Assembly: GCA_019635575.1 (NCBI GenBank)
Contig: JAHBZF010000002.1
Coordinates: 77,144 to 110,732, forward strand
DNA from: Pseudolabrys sp.
GTDB lineage: Bacteria; Pseudomonadota; Alphaproteobacteria; Rhizobiales; Xanthobacteraceae
Reading direction: 5' to 3'
Length of the DNA: 33,589 bases
Under the pieces are notes generated by a model. It saw nothing but the letters and a program-made list of their open reading frames with translations, was not told the origin of the DNA and did not search any database. Shown here one piece after another: positions 11,387 through 32,371 of this stretch. A program made the translations under genes and the position numbers. Within the stretch, counting starts at the first letter, position 1. Each line of letters opens with the position of its first letter.

Positions 11387-11436
11387 TGCTTCCTCCCAGC
11401 TTGTTTTATTGTTTGCTTGTCGTCGCCCGCGCGCCG

Positions 11437-13002: not shown

Positions 13003-14414
13003 GAGACGGACTCTTTCGCCGCAGGTTCAACGACGACCAGTTTTGTTTTGGTGGCGGTTCGCTCGAACGTTCCGAACGAGGCAAGCTCGAGCGCGGTCGT
13101 GACGCCGAGATCGCGCCGGATCACTTTCTCGATCGCGTCGCGCATCGACGCTTCGTTCGCCGGATCGATACCGGCGGCGCATTCCGCCCGGACATGAAGC
13201 GGCGGCTCGACTTTCGGTCCCTTCTCGCGCAGCACGATCTGCATCTTGCCGGTGAGTTTCGGCATAAATCCACCGATCACCGATTGCACCGCCGACGGGA
13301 ACAGATTGACGCCGCGCACGATCAGCATGTCGTCGGAGCGGCCGATGATGTCCATGCGGAATCCGGTCCGCCCGCACGCGCAGGGCTGTGTGTAGACGCG
13401 CAGGATGTCGCCGGTGCGATATCGCATCAGCGCGCAGGCCTGCCGGTCGAGATGAGTGAAGATGTATTCTCCCTCGGCCCCCTCGCTCATCTCCTTCAGT
13501 TCGCCGGTCGCGGGATCGATGAGCTGAACCAGGGCGAGGTCCGGTGTGAGCTGATGCTTGCCGGCGCGATGCGCGCAATGCGCAAAGACATTGGGATGCG
13601 CGTCCGATGTTGACGCCCAGTCATAGACATGTCGCGTTCCCCAGACGCGCTCCATTTCGCGCTGGAATGCCGGCAGTTCAAAACCCGATTCGCCGCCGCC
13701 GCAGACCACCCGGAAACCGAGATCCTTGGCTTCCATGCCGAGAATCTCCGGCGCCTTTTCCGCGAGATAGGCGGCAAAGGACGGCGTGCCGATGAATACT
13801 GTCGCCTTCACGTCCCGCGCGATGCTCAACAATCCTTCGGCACGGCGCTCCGCGCCGACCGGCACGTCGACGGCTCCCAGATGCTCGATCGCGGTGCAGA
13901 AAGGGACGCCTGCGTTGAACATGCTCAATGCAAAGCCGTTGATCACACGGTCGCCCGGCCGCACGCCGAACCCCCACAGGCCGCGGCAAATGCTTTCGTT
14001 GCGCTGCGCGATGTCGAATTTGGTGTAGCCCTGGAAGACGGGCTTTCCGGTGGTCCCGGCCGTCGACGTCATACGCACGATACGCTCCATCGGCGCCGCC
14101 TGATGCGACCCGAACGGCGGGTACTCCTCCTGCCCTGCTCGCAGTTCCTGCTTGGTGGTGAACGGAATCCCGGCGAGATCGTCGATCGTGCGCAGGTCGC
14201 CCGGCTTGAAACCGGCGTCATCCAGCTTGCGCCGGTAGAGCCGCGACTGACGATAGAGACTATCGACCTGACGCTTCAGCTTGCGGAGTTGCAAGTCCCG
14301 CATCTGCTCGACAGGCATCGTCTCGATCGGCGCGTTCCAGTACGGCCGCGCGAGATCATCCGTGTCCGAGGGAACATGCAGCTCCGTCACGCCCTGCACC
14401 GCAGCCCTCGCCAA
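12999..14414 (-). CDS. Phenylacetate-CoA ligase (PaaK)-family AMP-forming acyl-CoA ligase
   Basis: A 471-residue adenylate-forming enzyme that activates a carboxylic acid to its CoA thioester with ATP. The P-loop TSTAGTTGKP is near residues 116-125, the YRTGD motif near 332-336 and GRSDDMLIVRGVNLFPS near 358-374; a CACGRTG segment precedes the last, as in PaaK enzymes. Homology does not prove phenylacetate as substrate: PaaK relatives use many aryl and other acids. The apparent start is TTG at 14412-14414, two bases after the flavin reductase stop; GTG codons slightly downstream are alternatives. It overlaps the rhodanese gene downstream. Confidence 0.88.
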   Translation of the reverse strand: MARAAVQGVTELHVPSDTDDLARPYWNAPIETMPVEQMRDLQLRKLKRQVDSLYRQSRLYRRKLDDAGFKPGDLRTIDDLAGIPFTTKQELRAGQEEYPPFGSHQAAPMERIVRMTSTAGTTGKPVFQGYTKFDIAQRNESICRGLWGFGVRPGDRVINGFALSMFNAGVPFCTAIEHLGAVDVPVGAERRAEGLLSIARDVKATVFIGTPSFAAYLAEKAPEILGMEAKDLGFRVVCGGGESGFELPAFQREMERVWGTRHVYDWASTSDAHPNVFAHCAHRAGKHQLTPDLALVQLIDPATGELKEMSEGAEGEYIFTHLDRQACALMRYRTGDILRVYTQPCACGRTGFRMDIIGRSDDMLIVRGVNLFPSAVQSVIGGFMPKLTGKMQIVLREKGPKVEPPLHVRAECAAGIDPANEASMRDAIEKVIRRDLGVTTALELASFGTFERTATKTKLVVVEPAAKESVS

Positions 14415-14416
14415 TC

Positions 14417-14944
14417 TCAGGATAAACGAAAACGATCGGACTGCGCGTAGGCACCCGCGTGGAACAGCAGCGGCGCGCGCTCCTCATGGGCGAAGCGGCA
14501 AACCTCGCCGACGAAGATCGTATGATCGCCCGCCTCGTAGACATTGAGGTTCTTGCATTCGAACCATGCCGCGACGCTGTCGATAATCGGCAGCTTGCTG
14601 ACCGGGCTCGGTGTCCACGAAATGCCGGAAAACCGATCCTCGGTCCTCGCGCTGAATTGCTGCGCGACCGAGACCTGATGCTCCGCGAGAACATTGATGA
14701 CAAAATAGCCGCAGTTGCGGAACGCTTCGTAGGAGCGAGCCGCCCTGCGCAAACTCCACAACACCAGCGGCGGATCGAGCGAGACGGAGGTAAACGAGTT
14801 GGCCGTCAGTCCGGTCAATGCGCCCGTGGCGTCGCGCGTGACGATCGTCGTGACGCCGGTGGCGAATTGCCCAAGCGCGGTGCGCAGATCGCGCTGGTTG
14901 ATCGCCTGGGAGACTGTCTTGCTGGGTTCTGCTGTCATCAGCAC
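14417..14944 (-). CDS. Flavin reductase (HpaC-like, FMN-binding split barrel)
   Basis: A 175-residue NAD(P)H:flavin oxidoreductase. Family marks are LGQFATGVTTIVT, LTANSFTSVSLDPPLVLWSLRR and YFVINVLAEHQVSVAQQF, with the final LLFHAGAY region. Such proteins supply reduced FMN or FAD to a separate monooxygenase. The partner is probably the acyl-CoA-dehydrogenase-fold protein immediately upstream (24 bases apart). The GTG at 14942-14944 is preferred since GAGGA lies eight bases ahead; an ATG two codons later is possible. Confidence 0.88.
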   Translation of the reverse strand: MLMTAEPSKTVSQAINQRDLRTALGQFATGVTTIVTRDATGALTGLTANSFTSVSLDPPLVLWSLRRAARSYEAFRNCGYFVINVLAEHQVSVAQQFSARTEDRFSGISWTPSPVSKLPIIDSVAAWFECKNLNVYEAGDHTIFVGEVCRFAHEERAPLLFHAGAYAQSDRFRLS

Positions 14945-14968: not shown

Positions 14969-16156
14969 TCAGAGGCGCGCGGTCGTATCGAATTCTTGCC
15001 CGAGGTGATACTTGCCGACCGTCGCCGCGGTCTTGTCGAGATTTTCGTGCAAGGTCTGCACCCGCAGATCGCGGAACATGCGCGCCAGCGGCGACTTCGC
15101 GTGGAATGCGCTCGAGCCGGCAATCTGCGCGCCCTTGTCCATGGCGTTCACCGCATTCTCGATGGCACGATGCTTCGCCGTCATCGAGAACAGTTCGGCC
15201 TCTTCGATGCGGCGCATCTTCCAGAGCCAGGCCGCGCGATAGATCAGCCAGCGCACGGAATCGATCCCGATCCGGATTTCGCCGAGACGAAGCTGGGCAT
15301 AAGCGTCCGAAGCCGTGCCACGCTTCGGCAGATAATCGGTCAGATAGTCGAAGATGCCTTCGCTGCCGCCGAGATATTGGGCGGCGAAACCGAGATGGAA
15401 CCGCGCCTGCCAGCGATCGCGCGGAAAAACGCCGGGCGTTCCGATCACGTAGTCATCCGGCACGAAACAGTTGTCGAGCAGGATGTTCGGGCTCACCGCC
15501 GCGCGCATCCCCATCGGATTCCAGGACCCCTCTTCGAGGGTCAGCCCCGGCGTGCCGCGCGGAATACAGAGGCCGATATGCCCTTCGGTCGGGGACATTC
15601 CTTTGATGCCGGCGAAGATCACGTTGTATTCGACCGTATCGGCCAGCGACGCATAATTCTTGGTGCCGTTGACGACATAGCCGCCATCGACGCGCTCGGC
15701 CGCGGTGACGAGATTGTAAAGGCCGCGCGAGGTCCGCCCCGGCTCGCTGCCGGTCGCATTGAGCAGCGCGCCATTCTCGACGACGTTGCCGAGAATGTTC
15801 TTGCGCTGCGCCGGGCTGCAGATCTGATCGACGAGATGCGAACCGTGACAGTGAATGTGGAGCGAATGGGCCGTCGACATGCAGTAGCGCGCCGTCTGCT
15901 CGATCGCGATGATATACAGCAGCGGATCGCGCCCCATCGCGCCGCTGCCGAGCCCCCCGAGATCCTCGGAGACGGTGAGCCCGGCGAGTCCCGCATCGAT
16001 GAAATCGCGCATATTCGCGACGGGCGTAACGGTCTTCTCGTCGTATTCGGCGGCGCGCGGCGCAAAATGCGTTTTGCCGAGTTCCCCGACCAGATCATAG
16101 ATTTCGCGCTGTTTCGGCGTGTAGTCGAAATCCATTCCGATCGTGCGGGCACTCAT
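14969..16156 (-). CDS. Acyl-CoA dehydrogenase-fold flavoprotein, possibly group D flavin monooxygenase
   Basis: A 395-residue protein with the N-terminal helical, central beta and C-terminal helical layout of acyl-CoA dehydrogenases. Motif RDLRVQTLHENLDK (residues 362-375) places Glu371 at the position of the catalytic Glu of medium-chain enzymes. The same motif also resembles the R(N/D)xRTHTLHDPxD signature of DszC-type two-component monooxygenases. The adjacent flavin reductase favours the monooxygenase reading, and retention of Glu favours dehydrogenation; I leave both open. It is the first gene of a seven-gene operon driven by the promoter at 16211-16239. Confidence 0.78.
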   Translation of the reverse strand: MSARTIGMDFDYTPKQREIYDLVGELGKTHFAPRAAEYDEKTVTPVANMRDFIDAGLAGLTVSEDLGGLGSGAMGRDPLLYIIAIEQTARYCMSTAHSLHIHCHGSHLVDQICSPAQRKNILGNVVENGALLNATGSEPGRTSRGLYNLVTAAERVDGGYVVNGTKNYASLADTVEYNVIFAGIKGMSPTEGHIGLCIPRGTPGLTLEEGSWNPMGMRAAVSPNILLDNCFVPDDYVIGTPGVFPRDRWQARFHLGFAAQYLGGSEGIFDYLTDYLPKRGTASDAYAQLRLGEIRIGIDSVRWLIYRAAWLWKMRRIEEAELFSMTAKHRAIENAVNAMDKGAQIAGSSAFHAKSPLARMFRDLRVQTLHENLDKTAATVGKYHLGQEFDTTARL

Positions 16157-16202: not shown

Positions 16203-16214
16203 TTGTCCGGACAA
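16203..16214. promoter_or_regulatory. Perfect palindromic operator TTGTCCGGACAA (site A)
   Basis: A perfect 12-bp palindrome 47 bases upstream of the acyl-CoA-dehydrogenase-fold gene. It overlaps the -10 hexamer of the promoter at 16211-16239, the classic position for repression. Near-copies occur at 19990-20001 and 24298-24309. TTGTnnnnACAA-type dyads are typical of GntR proteins, and a UTRA-type GntR gene ends 95 bases away. Confidence 0.7.
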
Positions 16215-16308: not shown

Positions 16309-17166
16309 TCAGCGATTGACCGTCGGATATTCGAACCGGAGATCCATCGAATAGGTGAAGCGGTCGGCGGGCGTGATCGTCCGTCCCACTTCCACGATGA
16401 CTCCGTCCGCGGTCATGTATTGGCGGAGGATCGACAACGCCGGGAAGTTGGGTTTCACCTTGAGCGGCTTGGTGAGGCGGGCCGGTATGATGATCGCACT
16501 GATTTCTTGTTTGATCGCGACCACCTTCACGCCGTAGCGCCGTTCGATCATGGAGAAGATCGGCACTTGCTTCTGGCCGATCTGTTCGGCGATGCCGCGA
16601 AAAGCCGCGTTGATATGAATGGCCGAGTGGGAAATCGGCAGTTCCTGATCGCCCACATAACGCAGGCCTTCGGTCAGAAACCATTGCTCGTCGTTACCGA
16701 CCGGCGGCAACGGGATTTCGGCGTCCGCCGCCTTGATCAGTTTCTTGCGGAGCGGTTCGAGCCGGGTGTTCTGAACATACTGCCAGATGTCGGGGATCGA
16801 ACCGAGCGACAGCACGAACCGGCCGGAGATGTCCTTGTTCTCGACGCGCGTTCCGACGCCCTGATGCCGGGAGACGAGCCCGAGATCGCGCAGCTTTCGG
16901 ATCGCCTCGCGGACCGTGTGCCGGCTGACGTCATAGGTGTCGCACAGCTCGGCTTCCGTCGGCAGCAGCGTTCCGACCGCGTATTGCCCGGAGCGGATGC
17001 CCTCGGACAACAGTTCCGCCAGCGCGAGATAGCGCGGCTGGGCACTTTCGAACGGCGTAAAACCCACGTCAGACGAAGATCCGAGTTTGTCTTTCACGTC
17101 ACGCCAGCCAGTTGAAATCTTGTTCTCTCCGTGGATACGGGATCGGTCGTCACGGGGCAAGTTCAA
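16309..17166 (-). CDS. GntR-family transcriptional regulator, UTRA (HutC) subfamily
   Basis: A regulator of up to 285 residues. The winged helix is at about 43-110 (LCDTYDVSRHTVREAIRKLRDLG), followed by a UTRA ligand domain to the end: LRYVGDQELPISHSAIHI, then a variable core, and EVGRTITPADRFTYSMDLRFEYP. UTRA domains bind small carboxylates, amino acids or sugars. The longest frame starts with TTG (17164-17166); GTG codons at Val24 or Val34 are alternatives, and the start is uncertain. It is last in the CoA-transferase/aconitase X operon, and its likely targets are sites A, B and C (16203, 19990, 24298), perhaps with autoregulation at 17175. Confidence 0.87.
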   Translation of the reverse strand: MNLPRDDRSRIHGENKISTGWRDVKDKLGSSSDVGFTPFESAQPRYLALAELLSEGIRSGQYAVGTLLPTEAELCDTYDVSRHTVREAIRKLRDLGLVSRHQGVGTRVENKDISGRFVLSLGSIPDIWQYVQNTRLEPLRKKLIKAADAEIPLPPVGNDEQWFLTEGLRYVGDQELPISHSAIHINAAFRGIAEQIGQKQVPIFSMIERRYGVKVVAIKQEISAIIIPARLTKPLKVKPNFPALSILRQYMTADGVIVEVGRTITPADRFTYSMDLRFEYPTVNR

Positions 17167-17208: not shown

Positions 17209-18432
17209 TCAGCCGCGCCAGCGGCCGGCAACCGCCGAATCGATACATTGCGCCAATGACCCGAGCCGGACCCTGACATGATGGCTGGCCGTCAGATAAG
17301 CGATCTTCAACGAATTCGTCGCCAGCGTCCGGCCGGCCGGGATTTCGTCATAGGCGACATGAACGCAACTGTCAGATAGCAGCCTCACGTTCCGCCGTTC
17401 GAGCCTTGCCGCCAGCCCCGAACCCTCCGCCTCCTCCGCGCAGGCACGGTTGACCTGAATCCAGAACCGGACCGTGTCGGCGATGACGCGGTCGCCGAGC
17501 AAATCCGAGATTTCCCGCACCTGCGCGACCGAAGCATGCGGGCAGCCGATCGCCACCACATCCAGCGCCGTATCGTCGGCGGTGTCGTATCGGCGCGCTT
17601 CCCGCGCGAGCGTGGCGGCATCGATCCGGACCACGTCCGCAACATGCCCCGGCAACATGGCATCTGCTCGCGTCGGCGCTTCCGCCGTGACGCCGACGAT
17701 GTGCAGCATCGGCAGCGGCGAGATCGCGGCGAATGCCGCGCAGAATGCCGTCATCTCATCGAGCGTCGGCGTGCGATCGAGTCCCTCGATGACCGGAATA
17801 TGCGCTTCCGCCGCACGCGCCACCGCGCCGCCGAGAAGATTGAACATGTCGGGGCCGCGCACCGGCGTGTCCACCACGATCAGCCGCGTGCCGAACCGAT
17901 TGCGCGGAATGTGCATGCCGTAATGCGCCGTGAGGCCGGTGAGCGCGGAGGCAAGCGCCGTCGCGCCTTCGCGATTGGTGCGGGCGCCGAGCATGCCGTT
18001 GACGTAGGGCGCCGTGGCGGATTCGTTCCAGGCCACCGACGTGTCGCGCTGCGGCGTCACGCCGAGCAGGAAGGGATTGCAGGTAAAGGACGGGGCTGCG
18101 CCCATCGCGAGGCAGGCGTCCGCGATCCGCGTCTGAACGCTTTCCAGATCGCGCAGTTGAGCCGAAGCCCCTGCGGTCCGGCGATCCATCGACAGAATGT
18201 TCAGGGTGGTCGGCACGACAAATCGCCCGCCGCGCGCCGCAAGCGTCTCGAACAACCGCATCCCCGCTTCGCCCATGGAAGCGCCGGACAGCCCCAGATG
18301 CACCGAGTGCACCGGGATGAGACGATCGGCGGCATGGGCGCGCCCAACCGCCACCAGCATGCGCGTTGCAAGCTGGCGGGGCCATCCTTGCGTCCCGTCG
18401 AGCATCTCCTGCTGATGCGCCGTGAGATTCAC
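17209..18432 (-). CDS. Aconitase X catalytic (large) subunit, DUF521 family
   Basis: A 407-residue iron-sulfur (de)hydratase subunit. Recognised from HLGLSGASMGEAGMRLFE and VVPTTLNILSMDRR near the start, NGMLGARTNREGATALASAL near 145-164 and TLATNSLKIAYLT near the end. Three cysteines are in the places expected for the cluster: Cys118 (FTCNP), Cys297 (IGCPH) and Cys356 (SDSCVH). Characterised bacterial relatives dehydrate cis-3-hydroxy-L-proline, and archaeal ones mevalonate 5-phosphate. No proline genes are near, so the substrate is probably a different hydroxy acid. The GTG start overlaps the small-subunit stop (GTGA). Confidence 0.9.
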   Translation of the reverse strand: MNLTAHQQEMLDGTQGWPRQLATRMLVAVGRAHAADRLIPVHSVHLGLSGASMGEAGMRLFETLAARGGRFVVPTTLNILSMDRRTAGASAQLRDLESVQTRIADACLAMGAAPSFTCNPFLLGVTPQRDTSVAWNESATAPYVNGMLGARTNREGATALASALTGLTAHYGMHIPRNRFGTRLIVVDTPVRGPDMFNLLGGAVARAAEAHIPVIEGLDRTPTLDEMTAFCAAFAAISPLPMLHIVGVTAEAPTRADAMLPGHVADVVRIDAATLAREARRYDTADDTALDVVAIGCPHASVAQVREISDLLGDRVIADTVRFWIQVNRACAEEAEGSGLAARLERRNVRLLSDSCVHVAYDEIPAGRTLATNSLKIAYLTASHHVRVRLGSLAQCIDSAVAGRWRG

Positions 18433-18848
18433 GCGTCACCGCTCCGCCGGACAACGACCACGCCGGGCGTCGCGTTCACGTCCACCGCGTCACCCGACTT
18501 GATGTTGCGGATCGGATCGGGCGCCAGTTTGTGCAGCAACGGAACATGGCCCAGAACGGCGCCCGCCGTGACGACCGCATCGGCTTGCACATTGATGATG
18601 GCGATCGGGGCCGTCTTTCGCTCCGCGAGATGAAGCAACCGATAGGAGCCGCTGCTGCTCCCGCTTCCGCTCGGGAAAATCAGCACCCGCCCGGCAACCG
18701 ATGTGCCAAACAAGGGATGTCCCGGCTGTCTGACGATGCCCGTTGCCGCATCGACCAGACTGAGCGCCAGATCGGTATCCGTGACCAGAGCCGTTCCGCT
18801 GACCCGGCCCTCGACCAGACAATCCCCCTGAAACACGAGCGTCGTCAC
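18429..18848 (-). CDS. Aconitase X swivel (small) subunit, DUF126 family
   Basis: A 139-residue partner of the DUF521 protein, corresponding to the mobile swivel domain that closes over the active site. The mark is VAGRVLIFPSGSGSSSGSYRLLHL, with the serine-rich loop at about 60-68 expected to contribute an active-site residue. In many organisms this domain is fused to the large one; here it is separate and precedes it. Start is GTG, overlapping the CoA-transferase stop by four bases, and its stop overlaps the large-subunit start, so the three genes are translationally coupled. Confidence 0.9.
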   Translation of the reverse strand: MTTLVFQGDCLVEGRVSGTALVTDTDLALSLVDAATGIVRQPGHPLFGTSVAGRVLIFPSGSGSSSGSYRLLHLAERKTAPIAIINVQADAVVTAGAVLGHVPLLHKLAPDPIRNIKSGDAVDVNATPGVVVVRRSGDA

Positions 18849-19948
18849 GGAGACTGCTCCAGCAGCGCGTTCGCCTCGCCCAGCAACGGAACGTCCCGCG
18901 TTCCTGCCGGAAGCCGAACCGCATCCGCCATCGGCAGAGGCAGAGCCGGCATCGCCTGCCCCTGAGCGGCAAGGCGAAGGTCGCCGTCAGCGAGACCGGC
19001 CGCAGCCTCCTGCATGGTTTTCACCACGGAACAGCAGATGTCGTGCGTTTCAAACAGTCGCTGCCAATGATCGGCATCGTGGCTGGCGATGATCGCGGCG
19101 ACCGCCTCGATCGTTGTCGCCGGATGGGCGCGATCGTCACGGTCGTCTTCCGGCAATCCGATCAGATCGCAGAAGCCTCGCCAGAATTTTTCCTCGAGCG
19201 CACCCACCGCGATGAAGCGGCCATCTCTGGTCCGATAGTGCCGATAGCGCGCCAGCCCGCCGGTGATCGCATCGGCATTCGGCTGCGGCCACGATCCATC
19301 ACCCAGCCCACGCGCCAGCGCCCAGTAGCCGAGTGGCGCAAGATTGTCCGCCATCGCGATATCGAGAAAACATCCGGTCTCGCTTCTCTCGCGCTGCATC
19401 AGCGCCAGCAGGACGTTGATCACCAGCGGATAGGAGCCGCCGACGAGATCGGCGATCGGCCCCGGCGGCAATGGCGGCACACCGTCGGCCCCGACGACCA
19501 GCGATGTGATGCCGCTCTCGGCCAGATAGTTGAGATCATGCCCCGCTCGTTGCGAGCGGTCGCCGTGCTGGCCATAGCCGGTCAGCGAACAATAGATGAT
19601 CCTCGGATTGAGCGCGCGAACCGCATCGTAACCCAACCCGAGACGGGCCATGACGCCCGGCCGGAACTGTTCGACCAGGACATCGGCGGCCGCCAGCAGC
19701 GGCGTCAATCGCGCGACCGCGCCGGGCGCCTTCAGATCGATCGCGATACTGCGCTTGCCGCCGTTCAGCATGGCGAAGCTGGCGCTGGCCGCGCCGAGCA
19801 CGGGCCGCCGATGACGCATCTCGTCGCCGGCCGCCTCGCGCTCGATCTTGATCACCTGAGCGCCGGCTTCCGCCAGCATCAGCGTTGCAAGCGGGCCGGG
19901 CAGCAACGTGCTGAAATCGAGAACTTTAATTCCGGCAAGCGGAGTCAT
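18845..19948 (-). CDS. Class III (CaiB/BaiF-family) CoA-transferase
   Basis: A 367-residue enzyme that moves CoA from a donor thioester to a carboxylic acid. Family marks are LAGIKVLDFSTLLPGPLATLML at the start, GDEMRHRRP, NGGKRSIAIDLK and LVEQFRPGVMARLG. The catalytic aspartate is probably in FLDIAMADN (after about residue 170). Start is the ATG at 19946-19948, preceded by AGGA six bases upstream; the frame open further upstream begins at a TTG with no support. It opens an operon with both aconitase X subunits and the UTRA regulator, and is divergent from the citryl-CoA-lyase-like gene, with operator site B between. It probably activates the pathway acid. Confidence 0.9.
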   Translation of the reverse strand: MTPLAGIKVLDFSTLLPGPLATLMLAEAGAQVIKIEREAAGDEMRHRRPVLGAASASFAMLNGGKRSIAIDLKAPGAVARLTPLLAAADVLVEQFRPGVMARLGLGYDAVRALNPRIIYCSLTGYGQHGDRSQRAGHDLNYLAESGITSLVVGADGVPPLPPGPIADLVGGSYPLVINVLLALMQRERSETGCFLDIAMADNLAPLGYWALARGLGDGSWPQPNADAITGGLARYRHYRTRDGRFIAVGALEEKFWRGFCDLIGLPEDDRDDRAHPATTIEAVAAIIASHDADHWQRLFETHDICCSVVKTMQEAAAGLADGDLRLAAQGQAMPALPLPMADAVRLPAGTRDVPLLGEANALLEQSP

Positions 19949-19968
19949 CGGCGATCCTGCGGCGACGC

Positions 19969-19974
19969 TTGACA
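19969..19974 (+). promoter_or_regulatory. Consensus -35 hexamer TTGACA before the lyase-like gene
   Basis: TTGACA lies 73 bases upstream of the plus-strand ATG at 20047. The expected -10 region (about 19991-19998) falls inside operator site B, where the sequence is a poor TATAAT match. The promoter may be weak or activator-dependent, or its -10 may be non-canonical. Confidence 0.35.
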
Positions 19975-19989
19975 GGAAATACAAGCAAG

Positions 19990-20001
19990 TCGTACGGACA
20001 A
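19990..20001. promoter_or_regulatory. Operator site B, TCGTACGGACAA
   Basis: It differs from site C (24298) at one position and from the perfect palindrome of site A (16203) at two. It sits in the 98-base divergent region between the CoA-transferase and the lyase-like gene, so a single bound regulator could control both directions. Confidence 0.6.
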
Positions 20002-20046
20002 CAGGATAACTGGACTAGCACGCGCTCCGCAAGCCGAGGACCCAGC

Positions 20047-20832
20047 ATGAGCCAGCAAAAAACCGATATCCGCTCCGACATGGCGTGGAGCACGGCCGAC
20101 CGGATCACCGTGCGCGGCAGGGATTTGCCGTCGCAGATTCTCGGCAAGCTCAACCTTGGCGACGTCGCGTTTCTCGAATTGACCGGCCGCCTGCCGAGCG
20201 CCGCGGAATCCGCCGTCTTCAATGCGATCGCCGTCACGCTGGTCGAGCATGGCATCACACCCAGCGCCTTGGCGACGCGCATGACCATCCTCGGGGCACC
20301 GGAGGCGATGCAGGCCGCGGTTGCCGCGGGTCTGTGCGGCCTCGGCAGCGTTTTCGTCGGCAGCACGCAGGGCGCCGCCAAGATTCTCCTCGCCGCATTG
20401 CCGACGCGCGATGCGCCCGGCGATCTCGATCGGATCGCCGGCGAGATCGTCGCCGATCATCGCGCCCGCAAGATCACGATCCCCGGCATCGGCCATCCGA
20501 TCCACAAGCCAATCGATCCGCGCACGCCGCGCCTGTTCGAGATTGCCGAGGAGCACGGCTTCAAGGGCCGCTATGTCGAACTGATGACGCTGATCGCGAC
20601 GCATGCGGAAAAGGCGTCAGGCAAATCCCTGCCCGTGAACGCGACCGGCGCTCTCGCGGCGTTATGTTGCGAGCTCGGATTGACGCCGCAGATGTGCCAG
20701 GGCATCGCCGTGTTCGCCCGCGCGATCGGACTGGTCGGCCACATCGTCGAGGAAACCAGCCGCCCGATCGCCGCCGAAGTGTGGCATCGCATCGACGCCG
20801 AAGCGACCCGGCACGTCCGGCCGGAGACCTGA
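20047..20832 (+). CDS. Citryl-CoA lyase-like protein (short citrate synthase fold)
   Basis: A 261-residue protein of the citrate synthase superfamily, similar in size to citryl-CoA lyase and the C-terminal lyase part of ATP-citrate lyase. Expected activity is retro-Claisen cleavage of a citryl-CoA-like ester to acetyl-CoA and an oxo acid. IPGIGHPIHKPIDPRTPRLF (residues 145-164) retains the central histidine (His150) and DPR. The NVDG motif carrying the catalytic Asp in classical members reads NATG (Thr200), and the PxHGGA histidine motif reads STQGAA, so it is a divergent member. Start ATG has GAGGA six bases ahead. It converges with the SDR nine bases away. Confidence 0.82.
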   Translation: MSQQKTDIRSDMAWSTADRITVRGRDLPSQILGKLNLGDVAFLELTGRLPSAAESAVFNAIAVTLVEHGITPSALATRMTILGAPEAMQAAVAAGLCGLGSVFVGSTQGAAKILLAALPTRDAPGDLDRIAGEIVADHRARKITIPGIGHPIHKPIDPRTPRLFEIAEEHGFKGRYVELMTLIATHAEKASGKSLPVNATGALAALCCELGLTPQMCQGIAVFARAIGLVGHIVEETSRPIAAEVWHRIDAEATRHVRPET

Positions 20833-20841
20833 CACCGGCCT

Positions 20842-21624
20842 TCAGATCGAAACCGTCCCGCCCCCGTCAACCGCCTGGATCGTGCCGGTGATATAGCCGG
20901 CCCGATCCGACAGCAGATACGTCACCGCATCCGCGATCTCCTGCGGCAGCCCTTTGCGGCCGATGGGAACGATGTGCGGCGCGCGTGTCGACACCGCGCC
21001 GCCGGCCGTCACCGCATCCGTCGAGGCCGCAATCTTGTCGAACCGCTCGCTCTCGATCGGTCCCGGCGCGACCGCGTTGATCCGGATATTGTGTTTCGCA
21101 TAGATGTCGGACAGACCTTTGGTCAGCACATGCACGGCGGCATTGGCGCTGCAGCCCGGAAGATGCGCCGGCGTCGGCTGCCGGCCCCCGCGCCCCGAAA
21201 TATTGACGATCCGTCCGTAGCGTTGCTTCACCATCGCCGGCAGAACGGCGCGAAGCGTGCGCATATAGCCCATGAACTTGGCCTGCAGCACGGTCTCCCA
21301 ATCGTCGTCGGTCAATTCAAGAAAATCGCCGAATGTCGAGAGCGCGACCGAATTCACCAGGATATCGATGCGGCCGTGCCGCTGCAGAATCTGCGCCGCG
21401 GCCCGATCCACGTCATCGCGCCGCGACAGATCCGCCGGAACGATATCGGCCGGTTTGCCGCCACCCTCTCCGATCGCGCGCGCTGTCTGCTCGAGCGATG
21501 GCCGCGTCCGGCCGGTCAGGACCGTCACGCAGCCTTGCGCCGCGAGCGCGCCGGCGATGGACGCGCCCAGGGCTCCGCCCGCGCCGGTGATCCACGCAAT
21601 CTTTCCGTCGAGTCCATAATCCAT
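20842..21624 (-). CDS. SDR-family protein lacking the YxxxK catalytic pair
   Basis: A 260-residue Rossmann-fold SDR. The cofactor motif TGAGGALG (13-20) and the tail GYITGTIQAVDGGGTVSI are normal and Ser143 is present. The active-site segment reads LPGCSANAAVHVLTKGL, placing Gly157 and Asn161 where Tyr and Lys should be; NNAG is NSVA. It may be an SDR with different chemistry or a non-catalytic binding partner. It is the third gene of the operon starting with the acyl-CoA-dehydrogenase homologue at 24225, 18 bases after the PrpD-like gene. Confidence 0.85.
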   Translation of the reverse strand: MDYGLDGKIAWITGAGGALGASIAGALAAQGCVTVLTGRTRPSLEQTARAIGEGGGKPADIVPADLSRRDDVDRAAAQILQRHGRIDILVNSVALSTFGDFLELTDDDWETVLQAKFMGYMRTLRAVLPAMVKQRYGRIVNISGRGGRQPTPAHLPGCSANAAVHVLTKGLSDIYAKHNIRINAVAPGPIESERFDKIAASTDAVTAGGAVSTRAPHIVPIGRKGLPQEIADAVTYLLSDRAGYITGTIQAVDGGGTVSI

Positions 21625-21642
21625 GAGACTATGAGTCCGTTA

Positions 21643-23019
21643 TCAGGCGGAGCGACGCTCCTGCGCCGGAACGCCGGCGAGACCGCTCCAGAATGCCGAC
21701 ATGTCGTCGAGCTGGTCCAGCGCATCGATGCGGCCGAGCAAGGCCCGCGCCTGCGCCGCCGACAGCGGCGCAACGCCACGCGAGAAGCAGTCCAGCGCCT
21801 TGGCGGTGAGATCGGCGTCCGACATCGGATTTTCCGGGCTGCCGGGCAGATCGAGGATGGTGCGCGTCAACCGTCCGGACGGCGCGGTGAACGACACCGT
21901 ACCCCCCAGTCCGGCGCCCTCCTGGCTCTCGTCGATGAGCACCTTGACGGCATGCGCTAACTTGATCGCCGCCGGATCCCGCGCCGCGGACGCTTCGAGA
22001 TCCGCGAGCCCGAGATGGCCGCGCAACATCACGCTGGCAACCGAATACTGGGCGCTGAATTGCGCCGCGACCAGCGGGTTGCTGCCCGGATCGTATTTGG
22101 CGCCGACCAGCCGCGCCATATAGGGCGAGATGGTCACTTCGATATCCTTGATCTGCGAGACATCGAGCTTGTTCTCGTGCATCAACTGCAAGGCCGCCTC
22201 CGCCGGCGCATGGTTGCAGCCGCAGCTCGGAAACTTCTTCAAGGTCATGTTGAGAACTTCGTAGCGCCGCCCGAGATCGCGCGTGACGACGGCCGGGTCG
22301 CCGTTCTCGTACATGGCGTAGAAGCCGCACTTTCCTTCGAAGACGGCGCGCGGCGCGCTGGTCTCGTATCGGGCCAGCAGCGCGGAGAATACCGCGTCGC
22401 GGGCCGCGATCGCGGACTGCGTTCGCTTCATCAGCGTCTGCTCTATCGCCGCCTGCTGCGTGCCGCCGCATTGGGCCAGCGCCGCGCCGATGGAATTGCA
22501 AACCCCCTCACGATCGAGCCGCAGCACCTTGGCGGCGGCGGCGGCGGCCGCGAGCACGCCGTGCATCGAGGTGTAGAACCAGCCGGAATGATCGGTCGTC
22601 GCCATGCCGAGACGGCAATGCAGTTCGACGCCCAAAGCCAGGGCGGCCAGGAATTCCTTGCCGCTCCGCCGCTCGCGTTCCGCCAGAGCCATCACAGCGG
22701 GCATCACGACGATCGGCGAATGCGCCAGTCCGCCCAGATGCAGGCAGTCGAAATCCAGCGCCGCCGCGCTGACGCCGTTGAGAAACGCGGCCTGAGCGGC
22801 CGGCGCCCGGCCGCCAAATCCCCAGAGCACGGCATCCGGCCGGCCGGCTTCGTCGGCCACCATCCGGTGCATGTTCTCGACGCCCGGCGCGGTCGTTCCT
22901 GCCCAGGCACAGGCCAGCGTGTCGGCCGCCATCCGCTTCGTCGCGGCGATCACATCCGGCGGCAGATCGTCAAAATTCGTGGCAAGACAAAAATCGGCGA
23001 GTTGCTCCGCGAGCGTCAT
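21643..23019 (-). CDS. MmgE/PrpD-family protein
   Basis: A 458-residue cytoplasmic enzyme of the 2-methylcitrate dehydratase / cis-aconitate decarboxylase / iminodisuccinate epimerase family. Marks are the N-terminal helical domain, NGVSAAALDFDCLHLGGLAHSP (residues about 80-101) and the K(F)PSCGCNHAPAEAAL segment near the start of the C-terminal lid. Reaction type (dehydration, decarboxylation or epimerisation of a tricarboxylate-like acid) cannot be decided. An alanine run near residue 160 comes from a GGC repeat and is unremarkable. It is the middle gene of a three-gene minus-strand operon. Confidence 0.9.
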   Translation of the reverse strand: MTLAEQLADFCLATNFDDLPPDVIAATKRMAADTLACAWAGTTAPGVENMHRMVADEAGRPDAVLWGFGGRAPAAQAAFLNGVSAAALDFDCLHLGGLAHSPIVVMPAVMALAERERRSGKEFLAALALGVELHCRLGMATTDHSGWFYTSMHGVLAAAAAAAKVLRLDREGVCNSIGAALAQCGGTQQAAIEQTLMKRTQSAIAARDAVFSALLARYETSAPRAVFEGKCGFYAMYENGDPAVVTRDLGRRYEVLNMTLKKFPSCGCNHAPAEAALQLMHENKLDVSQIKDIEVTISPYMARLVGAKYDPGSNPLVAAQFSAQYSVASVMLRGHLGLADLEASAARDPAAIKLAHAVKVLIDESQEGAGLGGTVSFTAPSGRLTRTILDLPGSPENPMSDADLTAKALDCFSRGVAPLSAAQARALLGRIDALDQLDDMSAFWSGLAGVPAQERRSA

Positions 23020-23061
23020 GACAGCACTCCGTTCCTTGCGCTGCGCGCGAGCAGCGAATCC

Positions 23062-24225
23062 TCAACCGCCGTCGCCGCGAATGGCGGCAAACTCCTTGCC
23101 CAGCAGTTCCTTGATGGCGATGATCTTCATGATGTTGATGGTGCCGCCGGTGAACAGCAGCGCCATCGTGTCGCGCATGCGGCGCTCGACCGAGCATTCC
23201 TTCAGATAACCGTTGGCGCCATACATCTGCAGGCACGCGGTGATGGCATCGACCGACGACGTGACCGAATACCATTTCGCCATCGTCGCCTGCATCGCGG
23301 GGTTCTGTCCCACCACGCTCATCCACAGTCCCTTGTAGGCCATCAACCGGCAAGCCTGGATGCGCGTGTAGTGTTCGATCAGCGGAAAGCTGACGCCCTG
23401 ATACATGCCGATCGGCCGTCCGTAGACCACCTTCTTCTTGACGAACGCGACGGTGTCATCGAGCACCTGCTGCGCCGAGCCGATGGCGTTGAGCGCCGAC
23501 AGACAGCGCGACACGCCCCAGCGGGCATAAAGCAGCTTTTTTCCCTCGGTTTTCGAGCCCAGCACGTTCGCCTGCGGCACCCGGACATTCTTGAAATGAA
23601 CGATGCCGAGCTGGTGGCCGCGCGCGCCCATCTCTTCCATCTGTTCGCACGAGATGCCCGGCGCGTCGGCGGGCACCTTGATGAAAGCGATGCGCGGCTT
23701 GTTGGTGCCGTCGCCCTTCACCCAGGCGGTGACGCCCATATAGGTCGCGCCCGGCATGATGCTGACATGAATCTTGCGGCCGGTGATCAGAAAGTCGTCG
23801 CCATCGACCACAGCTTCGGTCTGCATGTTGGTGACGTCCGATCCCGCATCCTCTTCCGAGGTCGCGATCGATAAAAGATTTTCGCCGCGGAACACCTTGC
23901 GGACGACATCGTCGCCCCAGCCCGGAATCAGGGTCGCCATGGTGTTGTTGACGGAGCAGATCAGCGCGCAGCTCGTATCGACGCGGCCAAGTTCCTCGAT
24001 GCAGATGCCGAGCGTGATATAATCCTTGCCGTGACCGCCCATTTCCTTCGGAGCGGCCAGGCCGATCAGTCCCGCTTTCCCCATTTTCGGGATGATGTCG
24101 TGCGTCGGCAACTGCTCGACGTCATCCCATTCCTTGACGTAGGGCGCGATTTCCCGCTGGGCGAAGTCGCGGACATAGGCGCGAAACTCTTCCTGTTCCG
24201 GCGAAAAATTGAAATCGAGAGACAT
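23062..24225 (-). CDS. Acyl-CoA dehydrogenase homologue without the catalytic glutamate
   Basis: A 387-residue flavoprotein of acyl-CoA dehydrogenase fold, with LLSIATSEEDAGSDVTNMQTEA (FAD-binding region) and YGANGYLKECSVERRMRDTMAL near the C-terminus. Measured from Arg351-Asp352, the position of the medium-chain catalytic Glu is Gly360 (FTGGT instead of YEGT). The alternative Glu site of isovaleryl-CoA-type enzymes is Ser239. It therefore probably does not perform ordinary alpha,beta-dehydrogenation; acyl-CoA desulfinases and some reductases in this fold also lack the base. Start is the ATG at 24223-24225, which gives the family-typical MSLDFNFSPEQ; a TTG further upstream is less likely. It heads an operon with PrpD and the SDR. 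Confidence 0.88.
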   Translation of the reverse strand: MSLDFNFSPEQEEFRAYVRDFAQREIAPYVKEWDDVEQLPTHDIIPKMGKAGLIGLAAPKEMGGHGKDYITLGICIEELGRVDTSCALICSVNNTMATLIPGWGDDVVRKVFRGENLLSIATSEEDAGSDVTNMQTEAVVDGDDFLITGRKIHVSIMPGATYMGVTAWVKGDGTNKPRIAFIKVPADAPGISCEQMEEMGARGHQLGIVHFKNVRVPQANVLGSKTEGKKLLYARWGVSRCLSALNAIGSAQQVLDDTVAFVKKKVVYGRPIGMYQGVSFPLIEHYTRIQACRLMAYKGLWMSVVGQNPAMQATMAKWYSVTSSVDAITACLQMYGANGYLKECSVERRMRDTMALLFTGGTINIMKIIAIKELLGKEFAAIRGDGG

Positions 24226-24297
24226 TCCGGGACCGCCTGCCGTTGCTTCCGTGGGTGGCCGCAAGATGGGGTCCGGGGCGAAGGATTGTCAAGAAAT

Positions 24298-24309
24298 TTG
24301 TACGGACAA
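24298..24309. promoter_or_regulatory. Operator site C, TTGTACGGACAA
   Basis: One mismatch from the perfect palindrome of site A and one from site B. It lies between the divergent acyl-CoA-dehydrogenase-homologue operon and the Bug/MaoC operon, 73 bases from the first start and 79 from the second. A weaker half-site, CTGTCCGGAGTT, follows at 24330-24341. Confidence 0.6.
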
Positions 24310-24387
24310 CCAGATATCCGTTGAAATGGCTGTCCGGAGTTGGCTACGATCCTCCGAAAATAAGCATCGACCTTGGGAGGAAACGCC

Positions 24388-25377
24388 ATGCCAGTTCGCC
24401 CGACCCGTCGCAGTGTCGTGACATCCCTGCTGACGTTGCCGATGCTCGGCCGCGCCGCACCGGCATGGTCCAGCACGAGCGAGCCCTATCCGTCGAAGAC
24501 GATCCGCATCATCGTTCCGTTTCTGGCCGGCGGCGCCGCCGACATTGTCGCGCGGGTCGTCGCGGAAAATCTCAGCAGGATGCTGGGCCAGCCGGTGATC
24601 TGCGACAACCGGCCCGGCGCCGGCAGCAATATCGGCACCGAGCAGGCGGCAAAATCGCCGGCCGACGGTTACACGCTGTTGATCCAGGGAAACCCGCTCG
24701 GCTCGAACCAGTTTTTGTACAAAACGATCGGCTACGATCCGCTCAAGTCATTCGCGCCGATCGCCATGCACTATCGGGACTTCAACATCCTCATCGTGCA
24801 TCCGACGTTTCCGGCGAATTCGGTCAAGGACATTATCGCGCTCGCCAAGCAAAAACCCGGCGAGCTGACATTCGCCTCGTCCGGCAACGGAACATCGACG
24901 CACCTTGCCGGCGAGTTGTTCAACCAGATGGCGGGAACGAAGATCGTGCACGTCCCCTATCGCGGCGTGCCGCCGGCCGTGACCGACGTGATGGGCCAGC
25001 AGGTGAACATGATGTTTGCCGGCTACGGCGTAGTGTCCGGCCTGATCAAGGAAGGGAAACTGAAGGGCCTCGCGGTCACCGGCAGCCACCGGCTCAAACA
25101 GGCGCCCGATGTGCCGACCGTCGCGGAAACGCTCCCCGGCTTCGACGCGACAACCTGGACCGGACTGTTCGCGCCGGCGGGAACCCCCGAGCCGATCATC
25201 AAGCAACTGAACGCGGCCGTGAACGAAATCCTGCAACGGCCCGAGATCCGGCACGACCTGGAAAAGCGCGGCTTCATCACGGAAATCTTCACGCCCGAGC
25301 GGGTCATGCAGGAGGTCATGCGCGACATCAGGGTCTACGGTGACGTGATCAGAAAAACCGGGGCCACCCTGCAATGA
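24388..25377 (+). CDS. Bug/TctC-family periplasmic binding protein
   Basis: A 329-residue exported receptor. The N-terminus MPVRPTRRSVVTSLLTLPML has an RR pair before the hydrophobic stretch, so Tat export is possible. Then come EPYPSKTIRIIVPFLAGGAADIVAR and ICDNRPGAGSNIGTEQAAKSPADGYTLL, typical of Bug proteins. It is less similar to the two tandem Bug proteins at 9401-11386 than they are to each other. Start is the ATG with GGGAGG seven bases ahead. It is co-directional with the MaoC gene 40 bases downstream. Confidence 0.92.
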   Translation: MPVRPTRRSVVTSLLTLPMLGRAAPAWSSTSEPYPSKTIRIIVPFLAGGAADIVARVVAENLSRMLGQPVICDNRPGAGSNIGTEQAAKSPADGYTLLIQGNPLGSNQFLYKTIGYDPLKSFAPIAMHYRDFNILIVHPTFPANSVKDIIALAKQKPGELTFASSGNGTSTHLAGELFNQMAGTKIVHVPYRGVPPAVTDVMGQQVNMMFAGYGVVSGLIKEGKLKGLAVTGSHRLKQAPDVPTVAETLPGFDATTWTGLFAPAGTPEPIIKQLNAAVNEILQRPEIRHDLEKRGFITEIFTPERVMQEVMRDIRVYGDVIRKTGATLQ

Positions 25378-25417
25378 ACAGCCGGGGCGTTCCATTTTCA
25401 GCGAAACCGGACATCGC

Positions 25418-25873
25418 ATGATCGAGGTCGACACCCCTGCCGAACTGGCCGCTCATGCCGGACAAGAGCTGGGCGTGGGAGATTGGCTTCTTGTCGATCA
25501 GGAGCGGATCAACGGTTTCGCCGACGCGACCGGCGATCATCAATGGATTCACGTCGATGTGGAGCGCGCGGCCCGCGAAGCCCCCGGTGGCAAAACCATC
25601 GCGCACGGCTATCTGACGCTGTCGCTTCTCCCCCTTCTCTCGCAGACGGTCTTCAAGATCCGCCGGCGCAGTCGCGGCATCAATTACGGCACGGACAAAG
25701 TTCGTTTCATTTCTCCCGTACCGTCCGGTTCGCGCATTCGCGCGCGGCAGACATTGCTGTCCGCCACGCCGGTCGATGGCGGATACCGTTTCGTCTACGA
25801 GGCGACCGTCGAGATCGAGAAGCAAGAACGGCCGGCCTTGATAGCGCAGACGATTTCGATTGCCTACGCGTGA
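25418..25873 (+). CDS. MaoC-family (R)-specific enoyl-CoA hydratase-like protein
   Basis: A 151-residue hot-dog-fold hydratase. The catalytic motif is FADATGDHQWIHVD with Asp40 and His45, the pair used by (R)-hydratases to add water to enoyl-CoA esters; it is followed by TIAHGYLTLSLLP, which is also conserved. Length is normal for the single-domain form. It is second in a plus-strand pair with the Bug receptor under site C. In a polycarboxylate pathway it would hydrate an unsaturated acyl-CoA before cleavage. Itaconyl-CoA hydratase belongs to this same broad family. Confidence 0.9.
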   Translation: MIEVDTPAELAAHAGQELGVGDWLLVDQERINGFADATGDHQWIHVDVERAAREAPGGKTIAHGYLTLSLLPLLSQTVFKIRRRSRGINYGTDKVRFISPVPSGSRIRARQTLLSATPVDGGYRFVYEATVEIEKQERPALIAQTISIAYA

Positions 25874-26318: not shown

Positions 26319-30548
<4,230 letters not shown>

Positions 30549-30552
<4 letters not shown>

Positions 30553-31820
30553 CGAGCTTGCCCCCTCGTCAAGCGAAGCGGCGCGCCAATAAGCCCTTCG
30601 ATGGTCGCCAGCGACGTGTGAAAACTCAGAAGTGCCTCTAGTTCACGCAGGGATGCCTCAACCATGCTGCGTTGAGCATCGAGCAATTCGAGAAGCGTGA
30701 ATCGTCCTTGCCCGTAACCGCTCTCAAGCGCATCGACCGCACGACGGGCGTTGGGCAGCGCGGAGCTGCGAAGAATCTCGATCTCGCGTTCAGCCCCGCT
30801 CAATGTCTCGTAGGCACGGCCCAGCGTCAGAAGAAGGGTCGAGCGAGCCGCCGAACGGTCCGATTCGACTTTCAAACGCTGCTCGCGCGCGGCTGCAATA
30901 TTTCCGAGGTTCTGATCCCACAGCGGAACGACAGCGGAAACACTCACCCGAGCCGCGTTGTCATTGGTCTCGCGAAAATGACGCCACGCCACGCCGGCCC
31001 GCAAATCCGGCACCGGTTTCAGGCGGGCCGATAGAAGCTCGGCATCCGCCTGCACGCGGAGAGCGCTGAATCGAGCAAGCTGCGGGTTGGCATCGAGCGC
31101 GCCGCGGATTGCTTGAAAGGATACCGGGCGTCCGGTCCCGCCGAGATTCCCGCTGACCTGGCTGTAGTCGGGAGCATTGCCGCCCATCAAGGTCGCGAGT
31201 TCGAGACGCGCGGTCGCAAGAGTCGTTCTCGCTCTTTCGCGATCGGCGCGCAGCAGATCGATCGCGATCTGGGCGCGCGCCGTCTCGGCGGGCGATGAGG
31301 CACCCGCTTCGACGCGCCGTTGAAGCAACGGGGATACTCTCTGGAGCGCCGCAATTTGCGTATCGTAGATGGCAATACGGCGCTGCGCCGCCAACACGCT
31401 GTAGAACGCAACCGCGGTATCCGAGATGATTTCGAGCCGCACGGCGGCGCGTTGCCAACGCGCCACATCAAGCTCGGCATTTCCGACGGCGATTCGCGCT
31501 TCGCGTTTGCCGCCGAGCTCGATGAGCTGGCTCAACTGCAGCGTGGTCTCGGCCGATCTGGTTCCGCGATAGTCGCCGGACCCGATTGCATTATCGAGAT
31601 CGAACGAAACGTCCGGATTGGGAATTGCGCCCGCTTGCTGCCGCCTGCCGGCCGCGATTCCAATGTCTCGCTCGGCGCTGGTAAGGCGCGGATTGTTGTT
31701 GACCGCCCGCTGCACAGCGCGCGTGAGCGTCAGCGATCCCGACTGCGCGAACGCGCCGGGGCAGGTAGCGAACAGGAGCGCAGACGCACTCGCGACAGCG
31801 ATGAACGGCCGAAAAGACAT
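30549..31820 (-). CDS. czcC: CzcC-type outer-membrane efflux protein (TolC/OEP family)
   Basis: A 423-residue outer-membrane channel. A Sec signal (ASALLFATCPGAFA) is followed by the OEP domain repeats: LTRAVQRAVNNNPRLTSAERD, IGIAAGRRQQAGAIPNPDVSF, and in the second half RAYETLSGAEREIEILRSS with GYGQGRFTLLELLDAQRSM. The order C-B-A and spacing match czc operons elsewhere. The start is an ATG 68 bases downstream of the small Cys/His protein gene. Confidence 0.92.
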
Positions 31821-31888
31821 GATATGACCTGGACAAATGCGACATGCGCCGCCGGAATCTCCGGCGGCGACGCGTGTATTTTGTCAGG

Positions 31889-32215: not shown

Positions 32216-32290
32216 CACTATTCGCCTGGTCGACGGCACCGTCACCAAAACCCCGGCTCATGCTTCGCAGCCATTGTGCGACGCCGAAAG

Positions 32291-32324
32291 ACTTAATGTG
32301 GCAGCCCCCGCTCCGTCAAGGAGC
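32291..32324 (-). promoter_or_regulatory. Candidate promoter and overlapping inverted repeat for the czc operon
   Basis: On the minus strand TTGACG (32314-32319), a 17-base spacer and TTAAGT (32291-32296) lie 75 bases upstream of the first gene. The -35 sits inside a perfect inverted repeat GCTCC-N5-GGAGC (32310-32324), a plausible operator. The -10 match is mediocre. Confidence 0.45.
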
Positions 32325-32354
32325 ATCGGCTCACTTTGCTGTCAGCGGTTCCAA

Positions 32355-32371
32355 GCGTAACACTGTTACGC
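32355..32371. promoter_or_regulatory. Perfect dyad GCGTAAC-N3-GTTACGC
   Basis: A 7+3+7 perfect inverted repeat in the 266-base gap between the CDF gene and the czc operon, about 36 bases upstream of the candidate czc -35 box. It is likely a regulator-binding site, perhaps for a metal-responsive activator; no regulator gene is present in the window. Confidence 0.45.

Follow-up and report, generated by a model that had tools for sequence, protein, structure and literature searches.

Genes for a CaiB-family protein, a MaoC hydratase, a citrate-synthase-fold protein, a PrpD protein and a split aconitase X (AcnX) lie together in a 33,589-nucleotide stretch of contig JAHBZF010000002.1 from Pseudolabrys sp. 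(the window, by which the whole stretch is meant), and they raise the question of whether they serve one pathway and what kind of acid it would break down. The original prediction had read positions 17209 to 25873 as a possible polycarboxylate pathway with the logic of itaconate degradation, in which a citrate-synthase-fold lyase would replace the CitE-type lyase. The source assembly (3.83 Mb, completeness 84%, contamination 5.4%) belongs to a bacterium known solely from assembled DNA. Our best reading is that the genes form a variant of coenzyme A (CoA)-dependent branched-acid catabolism not matched to a described module. They would constitute an inducible catabolic island, under putative control of a GntR-UTRA protein at three operators, that imports a branched organic acid and degrades it in CoA-dependent steps, a proposal that we regard as about evenly balanced between right and wrong. 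The gene content, the layout, a shared operator sequence, gains and losses of residues and a partial conservation elsewhere were observed directly.

Layout of the island and its operator-like sequences

Scans with Pfam and NCBIfam recovered all the genes named in the original prediction where it had placed them, with Pfam matches above the curated cut-offs for each of the enzymes named. Its gene list was incomplete, as it had missed an acyl-CoA dehydrogenase-family protein (ACAD) and a short-chain dehydrogenase (SDR2) within the interval, as well as an adjoining set of seven genes; the TctC3 receptor of the interval is covered by its mention of Bug receptors. With these, the island comprises 17 genes over about 17 kb (8.4-25.9 kb of the window), in a layout that gives five presumed transcription units from three presumed promoter regions.

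All three of these regions bear the palindrome TTGTCCGGACAA or a near copy of it. Copy 1 (TTGTCCGGACAA, 16203-16214) is a perfect palindrome and precedes the monooxygenase operon by 47 bp; copy 2 (TCGTACGGACAA, 19990-20001) has 2 mismatches to it and lies between the divergent CaiB and citrate-synthase-fold genes; copy 3 (TTGTACGGACAA, 24298-24309), with 1 mismatch, lies between the divergent ACAD and TctC3 genes. The window holds 5 sites at up to 2 mismatches, the two outside the promoter regions being intragenic, compared to a mean of 1.0 and a maximum of 4 in 60 trials with first-order random sequence. In the whole 3.83-Mb genome the exact palindrome occurs once, within the island, and at up to 1 mismatch there are 7 sites, of which 2 fall within the island; the reversed control pattern gives a single site. 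A sigma-70 promoter scan returned 2 sites for 2.0 expected, and the overlap of one of them with operator copy 1 is not evidence by itself. No Rfam family reached the gathering threshold in the window.

The large subunit of AcnX (17209-18432, Pfam 359 bits), its small or swivel subunit (18429-18848, 89 bits) and the CaiB protein, of family III CoA-transferase fold (18845-19984, 293 bits), are encoded on the minus strand, with 4-bp coding overlaps between CaiB and AcnX small and between AcnX small and AcnX large. Downstream, and last in this operon, is a GntR-family regulator with a UTRA domain (16309-17166, minus strand, Pfam matches to GntR and UTRA). The citrate-synthase-fold gene occupies 20047-20832 of the plus strand (open reading frame 19969-20832, likely start 20047; Pfam 72 bits). 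Further right, the minus strand encodes the ACAD (23062-24264, Pfam), a MmgE/PrpD protein of variant pocket type (21643-23019, two Pfam domains with 199 and 86 bits) and SDR2 (20842-21624, domain scan), and the plus strand encodes the TctC/Bug receptor TctC3 (24373-25377, Pfam) and the MaoC hydratase (25418-25873, Pfam 76 bits), whose closest solved relative is Rv0130 (140 bits) and which retains the Asp/His motif of its family.

The adjoining seven genes form an operon-like set on the minus strand. It begins with a probable flavin monooxygenase of acyl-CoA-dehydrogenase fold (14969-16156), which adjoins a flavin reductase (14417-14944) and has a relative on a Variovorax plasmid, and continues with a PaaK-like acyl-CoA ligase (12999-14414), a probable CoA-activating enzyme whose closest solved relatives are phenylacetate-CoA ligase and 2-hydroxyisobutyryl-CoA synthetase. 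A rhodanese-like protein of four domains, one of them with a Cys-containing CAGRTR loop (11437-13002), two more TctC/Bug receptors, 2 (10412-11470) and 1 (9401-10375), and the short-chain dehydrogenase SDR1 (8421-9335), which has relatives in other genomes, complete the set.

A second island was found in G363, a 4.0-Mb genome of the same class and another family. When 385 genomes of the class were sampled, its AcnX was the best relative outside the own genome (43% identity). Of 4 operator sites at up to 1 mismatch in G363, 3, both exact ones included, lie on the 32-kb contig that carries AcnX; the reversed control pattern has 7 sites there, which speaks against the number as evidence and leaves the clustering. 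The first site is 44 bp before a MaoC gene that is followed by ACAD, CaiB, CitE lyase, CaiB and SDR genes, the second is at the 5' end of a PrpD-PrpD-PaaK-like ligase-amidase set, and the third, an exact one, is at the 5' end of a set of OYE-, DAO- and sarcosine-oxidase-alpha-like genes (L179:11739-18558). At the second and third sites the called reading frames span the site, and the true starts were placed downstream from domain matches. A GntR-UTRA gene, 37% identical to the window regulator, lies beside these sets.

Because this homologue shares the operator, the GntR-UTRA protein of the window is the likely regulator of the three putative operators, and because the operator is common to the three presumed promoter regions, the island genes are probably controlled jointly and act together. 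The co-function proposed originally is thus strengthened, both by the operator and by the overlapping kit of G363, which comprises AcnX, MaoC, ACAD, two CaiB proteins, SDR, PrpD, a PaaK-like ligase, GntR-UTRA and a CitE-type lyase. Sequence comparison therefore supports that most of the window kit recurs in G363 with the same operator, and with a CitE-type lyase in the slot of the citrate-synthase-fold protein. This recurrence is the best support for the idea of the original prediction, and the lyase swap that it had assumed finds a counterpart here; a canonical cleavage that would yield acetyl-CoA and an oxo acid is wrong or unproven, as catalytic residues are lost.

Residues that set the enzymes apart from known relatives

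The described system closest in design is the Ict-Ich-Ccl-Mcd-Msi cluster for itaconate and methylsuccinate of Cupriavidus necator and Pseudomonas aeruginosa, published in 2025 (PMC12290011, excerpts). Four fold kinds are common to both (CaiB family, MaoC, ACAD family and MmgE/PrpD), in addition to a lyase, whereas AcnX, the PaaK-like ligase, the monooxygenase and the rhodanese are additions of the window. The comparison was made with a copy recognised by gene content in Paraburkholderia caffeinitolerans (L107), and not with the C. necator proteins. There, L107:4720-20166 holds a thiolase-SDR-ACAD-MaoC-citrate-synthase-fold set together with a seemingly complete itaconate/methylsuccinate cluster, a GntR-UTRA gene and an SDR1 relative. 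Identities between the window and this copy were 32% for CaiB, 26% for ACAD, 24-28% for PrpD, 58% for SDR1 and 34% for GntR-UTRA. Ich is a MaoC-type hydratase, and the window protein agrees with it at the level of the family.

The CaiB protein had been taken for a CoA-transferase, as Ict is. All six active-site residues compared with alpha-methylacyl-CoA racemase (MCR), Arg85, Arg91, His126, Asp127, Asp156 and Glu241, are present in it, at a moderate overall similarity; His126, Asp156 and Glu241 are given as racemase residues in the excerpted text of PMC12682127. In the L107 protein presumed to be Ict, positions 126 and 241 are Tyr and His instead, and the pair His126 and Glu241 is also absent from one of the two CaiB proteins of G363, which is of transferase type, from the CaiB of locus L129 and from all 8 rows sampled out of a cluster of 16 further CaiB neighbours. 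The full racemase set was found again in the second CaiB of G363, in the Variovorax CaiB and in the four-member cluster to which the near-identical copy belongs (L036, L103, L105 and L115). Thus, the label of CoA-transferase is right for the family and probably wrong for the activity.

The citrate-synthase-fold protein matched the NCBIfam 'citryl-CoA lyase' subfamily PRK06224.1-5 with 342.8 bits (cut-off 193), and its AlphaFold2 model (pLDDT 91.6) was closest among solved structures to the citryl-CoA lyase 6hxp of Hydrogenobacter thermophilus (Foldseek TM 0.78), so that it has the fold of this enzyme and of the citrate synthase homology module of ATP-citrate lyase. Relatives numbered 87, of which 80 loci were kept, and 5 of these (with stops or short) were excluded from the residue count. 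In the 61 rows with at least 55% identity, window included, the first catalytic His position (His274-type) has Phe in 59 and Tyr in 2, and the catalytic Asp position (Asp375-type) has Thr in 60 and Pro in 1, whereas the second His and both Arg (His320, Arg329 and Arg401 equivalents) are kept in 61 of 61. Residues of these three kinds bind the hydroxyl and the carboxylates. The Asn that precedes the lost Asp is also shared with citryl-CoA lyase. Over 106 rows, the pairs at the two positions were Phe-Thr in 68, Val-Ser in 14, Phe-Val in 8, His-Asp in 7, Ile-Ser in 3, Tyr-Thr in 2, His-Thr in 2, Phe-Pro in 1 and Phe-Ala in 1; His and Asp are retained by six distant relatives and 6hxp, and the first His by the two non-canonical His-Thr rows. 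In a tree of 66 rows, the 7 His-Asp rows separate from the other 59 with support of 100/99, although the program flagged long branches.

His, His and Asp are the three conserved catalytic residues of citrate synthase (PMC6386500, in part), and in ATP-citrate lyase the Asp is essential, with a debated role (PMC10115795, in part). Of this triad one His remains in the window protein, Phe and Thr replacing the other two. A canonical citryl-CoA lyase was therefore rejected despite the subfamily score. Ccl differs further, being a (S)-citramalyl-CoA lyase of CitE type. No study of this large clade or of such a lyase was found in the open-licence PMC literature searched.

In the ACAD of the window the two known base positions are occupied by Gly and Ser and the YEG motif is replaced by TGG, so that the catalytic Glu is lost; the motifs of the Variovorax copies are TGG and SGG. 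A Glu is found at one or the other position in the reference, in L107 (the presumed Mcd), in L103, in L128 and in the cluster-3 controls. These residues argue against a normal alpha-beta dehydrogenation of acyl-CoA. Families without this Glu, according to the excerpts of PMC8360864, include isovaleryl-CoA dehydrogenase (with the base elsewhere), 3-sulfinopropionyl-CoA desulfinase, benzylmalonyl-CoA dehydrogenase and two others.

PrpD, in turn, retains Asp88, His99, Lys198 and Lys266 and loses His85, Tyr145 and His150, whereas the presumed Msi of L107 retains all seven. Six conserved residues bind the shared dicarboxylate (PMC12290011), and Msi has these plus a catalytic Tyr. The losses argue against a canonical 1,4-dicarboxylate substrate, and with the pocket altered the polycarboxylate class originally assigned is wrong or unproven. 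His85 is also lost in the relatives from Variovorax and from plasmid pAtK84c; on the latter (L154:13352-17233) the neighbours of the PrpD relative (38%) are a taurine-type receptor, a relative of the monooxygenase (34%) and an annotated F420-dependent reductase.

A straightforward itaconate/methylsuccinate cluster was rejected, as the residue tests fail for CaiB, lyase, ACAD and PrpD: the likeness is one of design, not membership. A looser version, in which a CoA-transferase, MaoC and the citrate-synthase-fold lyase would produce acetyl-CoA plus an oxo acid from what PrpD and AcnX supply, is unlikely. The retained His320, Arg329 and Arg401 equivalents, in their presumed roles, speak for it, as does G363, where AcnX is accompanied by a CitE lyase and a transferase-type CaiB. 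The families are also those of the published cluster (PMC12290011), and the ACAD of G363 carries the GEG motif that is listed for methylsuccinyl-CoA dehydrogenase in the excerpted part of PMC8360864. Against it stand the racemase bases of CaiB, the missing His274 and Asp375 equivalents of the lyase, the ACAD without a base at either known position and the PrpD without the His85 and His150 equivalents that L107 retains.

For AcnX, with reference residues from the excerpts of PMC8184944, the window protein retains the three cluster Cys and the equivalents of Glu292, Lys530 and Ser70, but the hydroxyproline landmarks Asp203, Tyr534 and Cys71 are replaced by Gly, Leu and Ser. Among known types it shares the two subunits, the catalytic Ser, Glu and Lys and the three-Cys pattern with the archaeal one, and the three cluster Cys and catalytic Ser, Glu and Lys of the AcnX mevalonate 5-phosphate dehydratase are likewise present. 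Perhaps it is one of the types IIc-IIf, called functionally uncharacterised in the excerpted part of PMC8184944. Sorted by these residues, the 44 AcnX matches in the class sample fall into an Asp203 type (19), a Met-Cys-Asp-Ala type that also is without the hydroxyproline landmarks (17) and a group with the third Cys (6), and the other 2 belong to none of them. The third Cys occurs in the window, L128, L129, L157, L177 and L178, with Cys508 aligned in the first three. A search of 398 genomes from the phylum at E <= 1e-60 found AcnX in the own genome only. The own genome also has another AcnX, of the Met-Cys-Asp-Ala type (G000 contig 90, L146:4540-8178), which adjoins a GntR-UTRA gene and TctC receptors.

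Related gene sets in other genomes

When the neighbourhoods of the 80 citrate-synthase-fold loci were compared, a single locus, L036, had homologues of AcnX, the window MaoC, the rhodanese and the flavin reductase; it comes from a near-identical genome, which matches the portion of the island that it covers at 95-100% identity. Homologues of ACAD (26/80), CaiB (29/80) and PrpD (22/80) were more frequent, but reached at least 45% identity solely in L036. Many of the 80 loci are short contigs, so missing neighbours are weak evidence. The next relatives of the citrate-synthase-fold gene (55-66%) adjoin genes for AMP-ligases, CaiB, PrpD, ACAD or SDR proteins in sets that vary. SDR1 relatives (58-60%) adjoin it in 4 of the 80 loci (L044, L083, L088 and L103), and in L107 one (58%) lies in a different operon of the same locus.

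The same adjacency was seen on Roseobacter-type plasmids, in both of the records opened (L151 and L152) of 114 matching ones; among the matches listed, an SDR was named at the match in 23 of 25 plasmid rows. At about 1.9-15 kb, L151 (Roseibium) and L152 (Paracoccus) hold the citrate-synthase-fold gene (61-62%), SDR1 (58%), acyl-CoA carboxylase, HMG-CoA lyase, AMP-ligase, ACADs and MaoC, gene sets that resemble leucine- or terpenoid-acid breakdown.

Plasmid 4 of Variovorax sp. SRS16 carries relatives of the monooxygenase (65%), ligase (62%), ACAD (58%), TctC1 (50%), SDR2 (48%), PrpD (46%), rhodanese (36%) and flavin reductase (35%), and beside this core a thiolase, a MaoC and a CaiB in which the racemase set is complete; the annotated gene order of PBL-E5 plasmid 3 is the same. 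This core and the racemase-type CaiB are common to the window and the cluster of both strains, which differs in its IclR regulators and in having a thiolase but, in the SRS16 stretch, no citrate-synthase-fold gene, AcnX or operator match. No description of it was found in the open-licence PMC literature searched.

Neighbours of AcnX were screened by tblastn with few query proteins, in stretches of 8 to 19 kb. A CaiB homologue and one lyase were present in 3 of the 6 three-Cys loci, the lyase being of citrate-synthase type in the window, CitE in L128 and HMGL in L129; in the other 38 AcnX loci a CaiB homologue was found in 3 and a lyase of these kinds in none.

Beyond the island, a ketopantoate hydroxymethyltransferase homologue of 369 amino acids lies downstream of SDR1 (6929-8038) and is longer than is usual for this enzyme. 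On the other side, an AcrB-family pump, membrane-fusion and outer-membrane proteins and then a cation-efflux protein form an adjoining metal-efflux-like block (26319-33462).

A candidate pathway and its rivals

The steps of the proposed branched-acid pathway were assigned from protein family and residues. The Bug receptors would import the acid, probably an alpha- or beta-branched hydroxy acid; uptake by them, as originally proposed, is a reasonable guess. AcnX would dehydrate a beta-hydroxy acid in its free form, ahead of the CoA steps, and PrpD may also act on the free acid by enolate chemistry beside the carboxylate, in an epimerisation or a dehydration. The CoA ester would be supplied by the PaaK-like ligase and not by CaiB, which would epimerise this ester at its alpha branch. 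Beta-oxidation-like steps would fall to the dehydrogenase-fold protein, MaoC and the SDRs, with hydration and oxidation assigned to MaoC and the SDRs, and the citrate-synthase-fold protein would cut a C-C bond of a tertiary 3-hydroxyacyl-CoA or a similar ester without the classical His and Asp, a slot that the thiolase may fill in Variovorax. The monooxygenase/reductase pair and the rhodanese could act on a peripheral group. As several enzymes, the citrate-synthase-fold protein most of all, are without the catalytic residues expected of their families, part of this chemistry is probably new, and no paper on such a module was found in the open-licence PMC literature searched.

Several observations weigh against this proposal. 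Among the 80 loci, the complete set as drawn by the original prediction was found elsewhere only in L036. Searches for the monooxygenase, at E <= 1e-70 in 295 genomes of the order and at E <= 1e-75 in 319 of the phylum, returned the own genome only, and so did one for the ACAD at E <= 1e-75 in 288 genomes of the order. The 31-kb stretch of SRS16 showed neither AcnX nor the citrate-synthase-fold gene, so that both may serve a separate branch. In G363, the OYE/DAO/sarcosine-oxidase-like set at an operator suggests a nitrogen compound as the substrate there. The best solved match of CaiB was MCR with 176.7 bits and a CoA-transferase was second with 162.6 bits, a modest lead, and the non-canonical ACAD and citrate-synthase-fold proteins might not run the steps assigned to them. 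With the exact set confined to L036 and rare in the sample, and overlapping sets recurring in G363 and Variovorax, the conservation as a unit expected at first holds by half.

A broader proposal joins the lyases and AcnX. The citrate-synthase-fold clade, having abandoned the classical His/Asp catalysis, would have evolved independently into C-C lyases that act on tertiary 3-hydroxyacyl-CoA esters, a third such family besides the CitE and HMG-CoA lyase types, and the bacterial three-Cys AcnX would dehydrate HOOC-CH2-C(OH)(CH3)-R acids that feed such pathways, the instances being the citrate-synthase type of the window, CitE in G363 and HMGL in G477. This substructure is common to mevalonate phosphate, citramalate and hydroxymethylglutarate. 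The proposal is doubtful: by tblastn, neither CaiB nor a lyase of the three kinds was found in the stretches of L157, L177 and L178, and the three islands with AcnX, CaiB and a lyase differ in CaiB too, because that of L129 is without the racemase bases. In addition, the PrpD proteins of G363 are not of the pocket type of the window.

Among the other explanations for the window genes, the breakdown of an organosulfur acid, in which the monooxygenase and reductase would oxidise the sulfur, the TGG-type ACAD would eliminate sulfite in the manner of a desulfinase and the rhodanese would handle the sulfur, is quite unlikely. The 3-sulfinopropionyl-CoA desulfinase is also without the Glu, with an AGG motif (PMC8360864, excerpts), but the NCBIfam desulfinase model gave the window ACAD 164 bits against a cut-off of 600, below three other dehydrogenase models. 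The rhodanese is conserved in Variovorax, with the CAGRTR loop in one domain of both proteins, and of two monooxygenase relatives (34% and 40%) one adjoins the taurine-type receptor of pAtK84c and the other, in B. multivorans, is flanked by TauD-type dioxygenases; the stretches of G363 that were examined list neither a rhodanese nor a homologue of the monooxygenase.

An N-methylated or heterocyclic acid as the substrate, such as a hydroxyproline derivative, is very unlikely, even if the known activity of bacterial AcnX, dehydration of cis-3-hydroxy-L-proline (PMC5144071, in part), is near such chemistry and an exact operator precedes the OYE-, DAO- and sarcosine-oxidase-like genes of G363, since the Asp203 and Tyr534 equivalents are Gly and Leu in the window AcnX and the window proteins scanned include no oxidases of this kind. 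That unrelated catabolic genes lie side by side by chance, as the restriction of the complete set to two near-identical genomes could suggest, is the most improbable explanation, given the rare operator common to three presumed promoter regions and seen again in G363 and the overlapping sets of G363 and Variovorax.

If the branched-acid reading is right, a rare operator that marks much of one kit in two families would be a handle by which such pathways could be found and induced. The CaiB protein calls for caution, in that the bases should be checked before genes of this family are called CoA-transferases. On the same condition, those bacterial AcnX types with two subunits for which the excerpted text of PMC8184944 leaves the function open would gain a role that can be tested, and widespread genes annotated as 'citryl-CoA lyase' probably would not run that reaction in the known way.

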